From the NCBI GenBank assembly GCA_028291455.1, contig JAQGHY010000236.1:1-35458 (forward strand): DNA of 35,458 nucleotides, written 5' to 3'. The position numbers and the translations under genes were made by a program. Origin of the DNA: Rubritepida sp. Its GTDB lineage: Bacteria > Pseudomonadota > Alphaproteobacteria > Acetobacterales > Acetobacteraceae. Shown here one piece after another: positions 17,733 to 27,183 of this stretch; within the stretch, counting starts at the first letter, position 1, and every line of letters begins with the position of its first letter. The notes under the pieces were generated by a model. The model made no database searches. It was given only the letters and a program-made list of their open reading frames with translations, and was not told where the DNA came from.

Positions 17733-18671
17733 TCAGCTCCCCGTCACGGCGAAGGTGGTGTCGAAGGCCTCCGACACCCGGATGGGGCGCGATAGGACGC
17801 CGAATTCGACGGCCTCATCGCTGGCCCGCTGCAGTTCTGCCAGCAGCGGCGCATCGATTGGGACCACGCGGGTCCGGGTGGTTTCATAGGCGCGCTGCAG
17901 GAAGCGCTCCTGGATGCGCGTCAGCTCGGAGGTGTTGCGCGCGAAGGCCGGGATGTTGTCCTGCGTCCAGGACCAGCCGCGCGCCACCCGCTGCAGGAAG
18001 TCTTGCAGCAGCGGGCGTTTCTCGCGCAGCGCGTTCTCGTGCACGGAGATGAAATAGGCCGTCGGCGAGAGCCCGGTCGCATCCACGAGCGTGCGCGCCC
18101 CGAAACCCAGGATCTCGATGGAGTTGTAGGGCTCCCAGGCCGCCCAGGCGTCGACAGCCCCCGTGCGGAAGGCGAGCGAGGCGTCGCCCGGCGCGAGGTG
18201 CACGATGTCCACCTCGGAGGGAGAAATGCCTTCGCGCTTCAGCGCGGCGCGGACAAGGAACTGGCCCCAGCCGCCGCGATTGCCCACAACCTTCTTGCCC
18301 CGAAGATCGGCGACGGTGCGGATGGCGCTGTCGCCCCGCACCAGGATGCCTTGCGAAGCCTGACTGTCCCGCGTCACTCCGATCGCCTTGATCGGCGCGC
18401 CATTGGCATAGCTGTTGAAGAAGGCGAGGTCGCCCTGCGTGCCGAGGTCGATGGCAGCAGCGTTCAGCGCCTCCAGCAGCGGCGCGGCGAAAGGGAACTC
18501 ACTCCATTCGATGCGGTAAGGAAGATCGCGCGCCTGGCCGGAGACCTCGATGAGCGAGCGCAAACCGCCTTTCTGGTTGCCGATGCGCAGGACGGGCGTC
18601 GATTGCGCCAGCGCCGGCAGCGCCAGCGTGGCAGCCGCGCCGGCGCCGAGGATCCGTCGTGTGATATTCAT
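17733..18671 (-). CDS. SsuA-like sulfonate ABC transporter binding protein (second tandem copy)
   Basis: A 312-residue periplasmic protein of the SsuA/NitT/TauT type with a signal peptide ('MNITRRILGAGAAATLALPA'), then 'LRIGNQKGGLRSLIEVSG', 'YRIEWSEFPFAAPLLEALNA', 'IDLGTQGDLAFFN' and 'DAWAAWEPYNSIEILG'. It is very similar along its whole length to the neighbouring gene at 18668-19618, so the pair arose by tandem duplication. Its ATG overlaps the upstream TGA (ATGA). It would deliver sulfonates to the SsuC/SsuB transporter encoded upstream. Differences in the ligand-facing parts (for example 'SYANG' against 'VFANG') may broaden the substrate range. Confidence 0.92.
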   Translation of the reverse strand: MNITRRILGAGAAATLALPALAQSTPVLRIGNQKGGLRSLIEVSGQARDLPYRIEWSEFPFAAPLLEALNAAAIDLGTQGDLAFFNSYANGAPIKAIGVTRDSQASQGILVRGDSAIRTVADLRGKKVVGNRGGWGQFLVRAALKREGISPSEVDIVHLAPGDASLAFRTGAVDAWAAWEPYNSIEILGFGARTLVDATGLSPTAYFISVHENALREKRPLLQDFLQRVARGWSWTQDNIPAFARNTSELTRIQERFLQRAYETTRTRVVPIDAPLLAELQRASDEAVEFGVLSRPIRVSEAFDTTFAVTGS

Positions 18672-23322: not shown

Positions 23323-25263
23323 TCAGTCGCCATGGGCTACGACGCCTGACGTGCGGAATGCCTTGAGTGCCAGCGCTACTAAACTGCGCGTGCAAACCTC
23401 CTCATCCAGGGTTCCGGTGTCGAGCACGAGATCCGCCTCGTGCGGCGCCTCGTAGGGCGCCGAAATGCCGGTGAAGTCGGCGAGGTGATCCTCGCGTGCG
23501 CGGCGGTAGAGACCCTTAGGATCCCGCGCCTCGCAGGTGGCGAGGTCGGCCGAGAGGTAAACCTCGCGGAAGCGTCCATTTGCGATCCGCCGCGCCTCGG
23601 CTCGATGGGCGGCCATCGGCGAGATAAGTGCGACCACCGCAACCAGCCCGGCATCGGCGATCAGCGCGGCGGCTTCCGCGGCCCGCCGCACGTTCTCAGC
23701 GCGGTCCTCCGGCCGAAAGCCCAGATCTCGGTTTAGGCCGCGGCGCAGGTTGTCGCCGTCCAGTAGCGTCGCCTGGAGCCCGCGCGCCGCGAGCTCACGG
23801 ACGGCGCGAGCGGCCAGAGTGCTCTTGCCCGAGCCCGAGAGCCCGGTGAGCCAGAGCACGCCACCCCGGTGCCCGTTGGCCTGCGCGCGCTCGTCTGCCG
23901 TCAGCGGCGCCTCGACGGCGGTGAGGTTGCTGCCGGCCGCCTCCAACGCTTCCACGACGAAGCCGCCGACGATGCGATGGTTGCGCACCAGCACGCCGCG
24001 CCCGGTGCGCGGGCTTGTGCCGTAGGTGTCCAGCGCCAGTGGCCGACGCGCGCGCAACCGGGCGCGTGCCACGCCGTTGCGCTCCAGCCGCTCGGCCGGG
24101 ACAGAGGTGAGTGTGTCGACATCAATCACGGCGTCGATCGCCTCGACGGCGGCGCGGGTCTCGGCGGTGCCGTGGCGGAGCGTCGGACGCTCACCCTGGA
24201 GCAGCGGCTCCGCATCCAGCCAGAAGAGCCGGACCGTGACCGCATGTGCCTCGCTGGGCGGCGCCGAAGCCGCACCCAGCACTTGGCCGCGCTCGGCGAA
24301 GACGTCGCGGTCCAGCACGACAGCCACGCTCTCGCCGGCACCCGCCTCGCTGCGCGCCTCACCGCCCCAGTGCTCGAGGCTTAGCACCCGCGCCGCACGT
24401 CCGCCGGGGGCGAGCAGCACCTCATCGCCAAGGCCCAGTCGACCCGTCTCGATCCGTCCGACCAGCACGCGCTGCTCGCCAAGCCGGTAGACATCCTGCA
24501 CCGGCAGGCGCAGCGGCAGCTCGGTAGGGCGCGGCCGCGGCGGCAGCCCGTCCAGCGCACCGATCAGCGTGGGCCCGGCATACCAGGGCGCGGCTTCACT
24601 GCGGTCCACGACGTTGTCGCCATGCCGCGCCGAAAGCGGCACGACGTGCACGGCCGCGAGATCGAGCGCGCTCAGATACTCCGCGAGCTCAGCGCGCAGC
24701 GCCGTGAAGCGTGCCTCGCTCCAATCCACACGGTCCATCTTGTTCAGGGCCACGACGATGTTCGACACCCCCAGGATGGAGAGCAGATAGAGGTGACGGC
24801 GCGTCTGCTCGCCCAAGCCCTGCTCGGCGTCTACCACCAGCACGGCGGCCTCGGCCTGTGCCGCACCGGTCACCATGTTGCGCAGAAACTCCGCATGCCC
24901 CGGGGCGTCGAGCACGGCGTAGCGCCGCTCGGCGCCGCGAAACCAGACCTGGGCGGCGTCCACCGTGATGCCCTGGTCGCGCTCCACCTGGAGGCTGTCG
25001 AGCAGAAAGGAGAATTCAAGATCGAGCCCGCGGCGCGACGATTGCTCGCGCAGCGCCGCGATACGGGCGGCGGGGATAGCGCCGGTGTCGTGCAGCAACC
25101 GGCCAACCAGCGTGGACTTGCCGTGATCCACATGACCTACGATCACCACCGGGAAGGCGACATCCTTCACCGCGAGTGCGGCCTCGCCCGCGCGCGACGC
25201 GGTGAGCGCCGCGTCGCGCCTGTCCACCATGGCCTGGGTGTCCACCACGCCGGGGCCGCTCAC
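23323..25263 (-). CDS. cysN/C: Bifunctional sulfate adenylyltransferase large subunit / APS kinase
   Basis: A 646-residue fusion. Residues about 35-440 are the CysN GTPase: P-loop '[20 protein letters not shown]', '[15 protein letters not shown]', '[19 protein letters not shown]', '[11 protein letters not shown]'. From about residue 465 comes APS kinase (CysC): '[20 protein letters not shown]', '[17 protein letters not shown]', '[20 protein letters not shown]'. CysN powers APS formation by CysD through GTP hydrolysis; CysC makes PAPS. It starts with GTG overlapping the TGA of the cysH-cysD gene (GTGA), so the two are translationally coupled. This bifunctional form (often annotated NodQ- or CysNC-like) is common in alphaproteobacteria. 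Confidence 0.95.
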
Positions 25264-26810
25264 AGGTAGCCACCGACGCGCAAGCGCTCGAAAGCGTCCT
25301 CGGTCTCGTTGTCCATGCTGCGGCCCGCGCGCTCGGGCTCGGTCGTGGCGCGCAACTCGGCCAGTATGGCTGGGACGTCGGCCGCGTGGCTCGCGATGGG
25401 ATGGGTGATGCCGACCTCACCCAGCGAGCGGAAACGTTTGCCCTCCCGTGCGAAATACAGATCGCAGACGGGGATGTTCTCGCGCGCGATGTAGCGCCAC
25501 ACGTCGAGCTCGGTCCAACGCAGCAGCGGATGGATGCGCACGTGCGAGCCAGGCGGCCGGTCCAGGTTGTAGAGGTCCCAGAATTCGGGTGGCTGGTCGC
25601 GGAACTCCCAGTTCCCATCCTCAGCGCGTGGGCTGACGATGCGCTCCTTGGCGCGCGTCGCCTGCTCGTCGCGACGGATGCCAGCGATGAGGCCGTTGAG
25701 TCCGTAGCGGTGGACGGCGGCGCGCAGCCCCTCCGTCTTTCGGGCCGCGATGCGGCTTGCTGGCGGCAGGGTCGGGTCCGTCGCCTCGATCGGCGGGCAC
25801 GGATCGGAGATCAGCTCCAGACCCCATTCGGCGGCATAGCGCTCGCGGAAAGCATAGGCCTCGGGGAACTCCAGTCCGGTGTCGAGATGCATCACCGGAA
25901 ATGGTACACGGCCGAGGAAGGCTTTCCGTGCCAACCAGATCAGCACGTTGCTGTCCTTTCCGAGCGACCAGAGCAGGGCGAGCGGGCGGACGCGGCTATA
26001 GGCCTCCCGCAGGATGAAGAGGCTGTCGGCCTCCAGCTGGTCGAGATCGTCCATGGTATGGTTATTCGCTTTCATCGCGGCAGGCTTTGCAGAGGGTGGG
26101 TTCGGGTTCGGGCGGTGGATGCCGCATTCGGTCTTGCTGGTGCCGCGCCATCGGCCGACGCGAGAGCCCTCGCCCGCGGCGATCGGGCTGGTACAGGGTT
26201 GGCAGCCGACCGAGGCGTAGCCGCGCGCGGCGAGTGGATGGGCCGGCAGTTCGTTCCGGCGGCGGTACTGCTCCAGGCTGCCCGCGTCCCAGATCGCCAA
26301 GGGCGAGACACGCAGGTGTCCTCCTTCTTTACGGACGACCTGCAGCGCAGCGCGCTCGGCGCCGTGGTGCCGCTTGCGGCCGTCCACCAGTACGTCGAAC
26401 TCGGACAGCGCGTGTCCGAGAGGGCGCACCTTGCGCAGGGCGCAGCAGGCATCTGGCGCCGAGGACCAGAGGCCGCCCAGCGGATCCTGCGCAGCCAATT
26501 CAGCGGGATCGGGCCGGACGTCCCGCACATCTGTCAAACCGAGGCGTGAGGCTAGTGCGTCGCGATGCGCGATCGTCTCCGGAAAGTGGCGCTCTGTGTC
26601 GAGGAAGAGGACCGGCAGGCTGCGATCGATCAGCGCGGTCATGTGCAGGAGCGTGGCGGATTCCGTGCCGAAGGAGGAGAGGATCGCAACCCGTCCTGGA
26701 TGCCGCGCGACGATGGCGGCCAGGATGGCGAGCGGTGGAAGCCCCTCGAATCCGCCGACGGAGACCGGGTGGGCAGCGTGCCACGGCAGGGCAGGTACAT
26801 CGGTGGACAA
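25260..26810 (-). CDS. cysH-cysD: In-frame fusion of adenylylsulfate reductase (CysH) and sulfate adenylyltransferase small subunit (CysD)
   Basis: One 516-codon frame encodes two enzymes. Residues 1-245 are CysH (APS reductase type): '[15 protein letters not shown]', cluster cysteines 'DACCALRKV' and 'GCQPCTS', catalytic 'TSKTECGIH'. From about residue 250 comes CysD: '[19 protein letters not shown]', '[20 protein letters not shown]', '[15 protein letters not shown]', ending '[10 protein letters not shown]'. The join ('[20 protein letters not shown]') has no stop, and neither ATG in it has a ribosome site, so a fused product is likely. I start at TTG 26810 with GGAG upstream; the track's upstream TTG at 26981 falls inside the predicted -35 box. 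Separate genes are the norm. Confidence 0.88.
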
Positions 26811-26866
26811 GGGAAAGCTCCGGATGTGTCTCGGGAGCCGGGCCGAACGGGCGGCCGGGCGCGGCG

Positions 26867-26947
26867 TCAGGTGGGACGACACCGCCTTAGGGCGGCGGAT
26901 GCGTCGCCGGCGCGGCTGGTGGCCCGGCGATGCTGGGGCTTGCTCAT
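26867..26947 (-). CDS. Possible leaderless upstream ORF before cysHD, 26 codons
   Basis: A reverse-strand uORF: ATG at 26947, TGA ending at 26867. The peptide starts 'MSKPQHRRATSRAGDAS' and ends with one cysteine in 'RRCRPT'. There is no ribosome site before the ATG. A promoter-like TTGACC, 16 bases, TACTCT ends six bases before it, so transcription would begin at or near the ATG, making the uORF leaderless. It ends 56 bases before the cysHD start. A cysteine-sensing leader is one possible role. Confidence 0.4.
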   Translation of the reverse strand: MSKPQHRRATSRAGDASAALRRCRPT

Positions 26948-26981
26948 GGTGAAAGAGTACGCTGATTTCGGCGTTGGTCAA
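26948..26981 (-). promoter_or_regulatory. cysH-cysD: Predicted promoter of the cysHD-cysNC operon
   Basis: Read on the reverse strand, TTGACC (26976-26981) and TACTCT (26954-26959) are separated by 16 bases, close to the sigma-70 consensus. The expected start site falls at about 26947, on the ATG of the 26-codon uORF. This also explains why the track's upstream TTG start for cysHD is unlikely. Confidence 0.5.
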
Positions 26982-27183
26982 CTTTACACAATTCTAGAAC
27001 GTACTTTTTTTCCCAACTAAACGGTTGTCTACGGTACCTTTCTCCCGGAGGAGAGAAAATCCATCCACCTGAGCCACTGGGTCATATCAACGAATTCCAG
27101 GTATTTCTGTAAACTATCATTTTAGGGTGTGAAATTATGGACGGAGGGCCCCAGAATGGGACCCGCACAGGAGAAGTTCGGAC
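26982..27183. promoter_or_regulatory. Intergenic region between cysHD and the forward AhpD-like gene
   Basis: This stretch is AT-rich for this genome ('ACGTACTTTTTTTCCCAACT' near 27000; 'CTGTAAACTATCATTTTAGG' near 27110) and must hold the promoter of the forward AhpD-like gene. AGGAG lies ten bases before that gene's ATG. The reverse complement of 27121-27134 contains TTTCAC followed by CCTAAA. No gene or riboswitch was recognised. Confidence 0.4.

Follow-up and report, generated by a model that had tools for sequence, protein, structure and literature searches.

The DNA analysed here (the window) is a stretch of 35,458 nucleotides from Rubritepida sp. On its minus strand lie two genes, cysHD and cysNC, whose products make cysteine precursors. 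The first is one uninterrupted frame of 516 codons, starting at TTG 26810, and the order cysHD-cysNC is retained in both of the relatives that carry a fused cysHD. These are Roseococcus pinisoli, which is the nearest relative among those compared (CysHD 85% identical), and a metagenome-assembled genome (MAG) of the same genus, in which CysHD is 74% identical. CysH and CysD are encoded in a single ORF in these three genomes and also in two from a different family of Alphaproteobacteria; Rhodovarius has them separate. The features of the locus are listed in Table 1.

Table 1. Features at the cysHD locus, in window coordinates.
Feature	Position	Strand	Basis
cysNC, sulfate adenylyltransferase large subunit + APS kinase; overlaps cysHD	23323..25263	-	NCBIfam
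cysHD, PAPS reductase fused to sulfate adenylyltransferase small subunit; TTG start	25260..26810	-	NCBIfam and Pfam
Spacer from uORF stop to cysHD start, 56 bases, C-rich	26811..26866	-	sequence
uORF of 26 codons, leaderless type, MSKPQHRRATSRAGDASAALRRCRPT*, with stop	26867..26947	-	sequence; orthologous uORFs in R. pinisoli and the MAG
12-mer AAGGCGGTGTCG, unchanged in R. pinisoli	26877..26888	-	alignment, codon alignment
Conserved rare cysteine codon TGT	26879..26881	-	codon alignment, codon usage
-10 hexamer TACTCT, 16-base spacer from -35	26954..26959	-	sequence, promoter score
-35 hexamer TTGACC	26976..26981	-	sequence; kept in R. pinisoli, TTGACT in the MAG
AT-rich block TAGTTGG-A-AAAAA, 5' of the promoter; possible activator or UP-type site (putative function)	27003..27019	-	alignment with R. 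pinisoli

An earlier note on this DNA had described a promoter, TTGACC-16-TACTCT, placed six bases before an ATG without a ribosome site. Every one of these elements is present on the minus strand: the six bases between the -10 hexamer and ATG 26947 are TTCACC, and no Shine-Dalgarno sequence was found upstream of this ATG. The same note had described a 26-codon upstream ORF (uORF) with one cysteine codon, ending 56 bases before the TTG of cysHD, and each measurable point of this is accurate. The uORF starts at ATG 26947 and stops at TGA 26869-26867, with its single cysteine codon being TGT 26881-26879. The TTG of cysHD is itself preceded by a ribosome site, CGGAG 26822-26818, which lies inside the spacer. 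The composition of the spacer is 23 C and 13 G of 44 bases.

In each of the three genomes, the best-scoring upstream promoter ends 6–8 bases ahead of an ATG that opens a short cysteine-containing ORF. The score used was a simple position-weight matrix, which is a rough measure. By this score the window promoter ranks first over 340 bases; the top-scoring promoter over the same length is TTGACC-16-TAGCCT in R. pinisoli, with 8 bases to the uORF ATG, and TTGACT-16-GATTAT in the MAG, with 6 bases. A stricter sigma-70 scan did not list the window promoter (0 found): its threshold was 9 of 12 consensus positions, and this promoter agrees at 8. Both strands of the window were also scanned for a TTGA-type promoter 4–9 bases ahead of the start of a short ORF, and this site was the only leaderless promoter-ORF candidate in the 35 kb. 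On the promoter geometry in the three genomes, transcription is predicted to start at the uORF ATG.

The earlier note had proposed a comparison among relatives, with a lack of conservation counting against the uORF. The uORF proved to be conserved: both fused-cysHD relatives carry one of leaderless type with a cysteine codon in the same motif, of 23 codons in R. pinisoli and 45 codons in the MAG. The statement that only one cysteine is present holds for the window and R. pinisoli, the MAG having two adjacent cysteine codons. These are early in its uORF, at codons 10 and 11, and another cysteine follows later. In all three genomes the motif is in frame with the leaderless ATG, and it reads LRRCR in the window (CTA AGG CGG TGT CGT), RRRCR in R. 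pinisoli (CGA AGG CGG TGT CGC) and RSCCR in the MAG (CGA AGC TGC TGT CGA). Between the window and R. pinisoli, the stretches kept are the AT-rich block, the -35, the spacer sequence CGAAATC, the -10 region, the ATG and AAG at codon 3. The middle of the uORF has diverged, while the 12-mer and the stop are kept, as is the start region of cysHD, CGGAGC..TCCCTTGTCC. The gaps within the uORF add up to nine bases and are in frame; those outside it are of one and two bases (2 before the ATG, 2 after the stop) and are out of frame.

A second block, at 27095-27140 and close to where the divergent AhpD-like gene begins (27184), is strongly conserved in R. pinisoli (AAATGATAGTTTACAGAAATACC in one, AAATGATAATTTACCAAAATTACC in the other). 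In the MAG a second small ORF (MFLAQLLSVPGISADSLL...ALP*) overlaps the cysteine uORF in another reading frame, and its stop, TGA, overlaps the GTG with which cysHD starts; this small ORF has no Pfam match. In R. pinisoli (about 17752-17790), the AT-rich block lies within a perfect inverted repeat, ATAGTT-N11-AACTAT, of which one half is kept in the window. The block could be a site for a LysR-type (CysB-like) regulator.

The pattern of conservation bears on two other explanations of the conserved block. The first is that translation begins farther upstream and that the block extends CysHD at its N terminus. The cysHD frame of the window is indeed open across the uORF, as far as TTG 26981. However, the two-base gap breaks this frame in R. 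pinisoli, where it stays open for about 11 codons upstream of the start; the TTG and its ribosome site are both kept. Since the frame breaks in R. pinisoli, an N-terminal extension is ruled out. The second explanation is that the promoter is real and the uORF incidental, that a transcription factor exerts control from the AT-rich block, and that the 12-mer is a site in DNA or RNA: a regulator site, a ribosome-pausing sequence resembling a Shine-Dalgarno (AAGG), or part of a fold in the leader. The middle of the peptide is not conserved, the conserved 12-mer spans codon third positions, and the AT-rich block is conserved upstream and palindromic in R. pinisoli, all of which would suit this explanation. 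However, the frame is preserved solely within the uORF, the motif stays in the leaderless-ATG frame in the diverged MAG as well, and no fold beyond chance was seen (below), and we consider an incidental uORF rather unlikely.

Chance was assessed with a fixed criterion (a promoter, a leaderless start and a cysteine within the ORF), applied to dinucleotide shuffles of the 300-base upstream regions and to real loci. The criterion was modelled on the promoter first noticed in the window, so that the window is not an independent test, while the two relatives are. The window's own upstream region, when shuffled, gave a leaderless cysteine ORF in 13 of 20,000 cases, and over the three genomes the counts were 13, 6 and 13 (0.03–0.07%). 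All three loci of the fused-cysHD clade are positive, and at the same threshold none of 99 other cysH upstream regions was (matches at the family and class levels). In six more loci, amounting to 71 kb in total, the scan returned only the uORFs already found. It might still be argued that promoter-like hexamers happen to precede an ATG, and that their conservation reflects recent common ancestry, there being only three genomes, two of which (the window and R. pinisoli) are close. Against this are the shuffle rate per locus, the 0/99 result, and the MAG, which satisfies the same criterion with a different uORF sequence, and chance is very unlikely. From the conservation, the kept frame, the absence of the arrangement at the 99 other loci and the low shuffle rate, we conclude that a real, translated leaderless uORF probably precedes cysHD.

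The cysteine uORF has a narrow distribution, in one small clade, and was seen in three genomes. A true CysH, scoring over the curated cut-off, is found in 3 of 21 genomes of the genus, each time fused to CysD and each time with the uORF upstream. The other 18 have no true CysH match above the cut-off, though CysD is found in many. No such uORF was found at the cysI/sulfite reductase loci or at the cysD loci of the genus. Leaderless Cys-Cys ORFs were searched for by pattern in the 21 genomes, with 23 matches; one of these, directly before a cysD, was rejected, having no in-frame cysteine uORF. Short ORFs of any start with a cysteine motif were counted before cysH, giving 16 against 11 in reversed sequence, which is no clear enrichment and hence no family-wide signal. 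The spacer motif CGAAATC was considered as a shared regulon box and was rejected, its exact matches being solely at two cysHD promoters. A search of a plasmid collection turned up no closer relative. In another genus, an ATG ORF about 150 bases before cysH (MGRAPAQSAIPCCRAFRRR...) has two adjacent cysteine codons and a poor promoter match; none was found in the relatives checked.

TGT accounts for 6 of the 56 cysteine codons (10.7%) in 25 window genes. CTA, AGG and CGA are also rare in the window genes, which places the cysteine codon within a slow patch, CTA AGG CGG TGT CGT. A leaderless uORF might act with no sensing of cysteine at all: its 5'-terminal AUG would load or divert ribosomes and so fix the level of cysHD, and its arginine-rich tail of rare codons would slow all of them. 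UORFs with a 5'-terminal AUG are reported to influence downstream genes in E. coli (PMC4965119), the conserved patch is arginine-rich with rare codons beyond TGT, and two of the three species have one cysteine codon only. However, the cysteine is constant across the motifs of the three genomes and the residues next to it are not (RRC, RRC and SCC), and the downstream gene belongs to the cysteine pathway. We regard this account as unlikely.

The conserved cysteine codon, the cysteine pathway downstream and the precedents discussed below lead us to prefer cysteine-responsive control of cysHD-cysNC by the uORF as the best explanation, with a probability of about 0.45. In such a scheme, transcription of cysHD-cysNC would start at, or a base or two from, the A of the uORF ATG, and the mRNA would open with the 26-codon uORF, read as a leaderless message. 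Near its end the ribosome would enter the slow patch with the conserved rare cysteine codon. With Cys-tRNA in ample supply, the ribosome would complete the uORF and downstream expression would be low; when Cys-tRNA is scarce, it would pause at TGT and the output of cysHD-cysNC would rise, either because the cysHD ribosome site is unmasked, or because there is less Rho-dependent termination in the untranslated spacer. The C-rich composition of the spacer makes Rho-dependent control possible. In the MAG, the overlap of the second ORF with the cysHD start suggests occlusion and translational coupling: the pause would fall ahead of the second ORF, and ribosomes that run through could occlude the coupled start of cysHD.

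No simple switch was seen in the RNA. No intrinsic terminator was found, Rfam (including its sulfur-related riboswitches) gave no match in the window, and folding was on a par with that of shuffled sequence (z -0.52 and 0.43). A switch was sought by constrained folding and rejected, as there was no consistent gain in access to the ribosome site with a ribosome at the cysteine codon. In the window, the modelled accessibility of the cysHD ribosome site is 0.38 with the ribosome at the cysteine codon, or 0.67 when the RNA upstream of that ribosome is taken to be fully covered, against 0.62 with the ribosome at the stop; in R. pinisoli it is constant at 0.54. These values show no conserved switch. 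The suggestion of a cysteine attenuator like that of mycobacteria thus stands in part. The layout is apt, being leaderless, with a cysteine codon in a short ORF and sulfur genes next to it. The specific attenuator mechanism is not borne out, there being no terminator and no conserved alternative fold, and the predicted accessibility not shifting in the way that a simple model requires.

UORFs that gauge cysteine have so far been described mainly in mycobacteria and other actinobacteria. The mycobacterial examples are polycysteine leaderless uORFs (Canestrari et al., 2020, via PMC9031893, PMC13236596 and PMC4633059), and cysteine-dependent attenuation by such uORFs is reported in M. smegmatis. 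Occupancy of leaderless cysteine uORFs by ribosomes is also a reported precedent. The cysHD uORF resembles them as a short ORF of leaderless type heading a sulfur/cysteine operon, with cysteine near the stop and no evident terminator. The operon downstream is cysHD-cysNC, the uORF is conserved in 3 of 3 fused-cysHD loci of the genus and was found nowhere else among the loci searched, and promoter geometry in three genomes supports a leaderless start, which is a predicted one. The contiguous run of cysteines that defines the mycobacterial uORFs is absent (there is one in two species and two adjacent in the MAG), and for this reason we do not assign the cysHD uORF to them. It also differs in belonging to Alphaproteobacteria, in its flank of arginine and rare codons, and in being known from sequence alone.

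In Actinobacteria, leader ORFs with runs of cysteine codons have been predicted before cys operons, without terminators, and Rho has been suggested (Seliverstov et al., 2005, PMC1262725). Here too a candidate leader ORF precedes a cys operon with no conserved terminator, but the cysteines are single or adjacent and the phylum is another. Within Alphaproteobacteria, Sinorhizobium meliloti has a leaderless trpL attenuator (PMC7298713), which senses tryptophan through consecutive tryptophan codons and a terminator/antiterminator pair, neither of which is seen here. Compared with classical trpL-type attenuators, the cysHD leader lacks the intrinsic terminator and antiterminator, and has a leader peptide with a codon for the pathway amino acid, a weak likeness because the cysteine is single. 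The CutF-type uORF of Rhodobacter capsulatus, also alphaproteobacterial, uses ribosome pausing to control translation of the gene that follows it (PMC9973294). However, CutF senses copper and is exported, and a stem-loop covers the ribosome site in that system, whereas here there is no conserved stem-loop and the peptide is short and basic. In the literature searched, coverage of which was incomplete, no cysteine uORF was described for Alphaproteobacteria.

The layout therefore reads as a variant of the leaderless cysteine uORFs of mycobacteria and actinobacteria in a different phylum. We tentatively suggest that a single rare cysteine codon within a slow patch of arginine and rare codons, and not a run of cysteines, may act as the cysteine sensor, and that it may have evolved separately in Acetobacteraceae; the idea is a little less than evenly balanced. 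If the uORF does sense cysteine, then cysteine attenuation by leaderless uORFs also arose outside Actinobacteria, and one slow codon may suffice for it. Leaderless translation is common in Alphaproteobacteria, with 375 leaderless mRNAs in Caulobacter, and it would then be linked to the control of sulfur assimilation.
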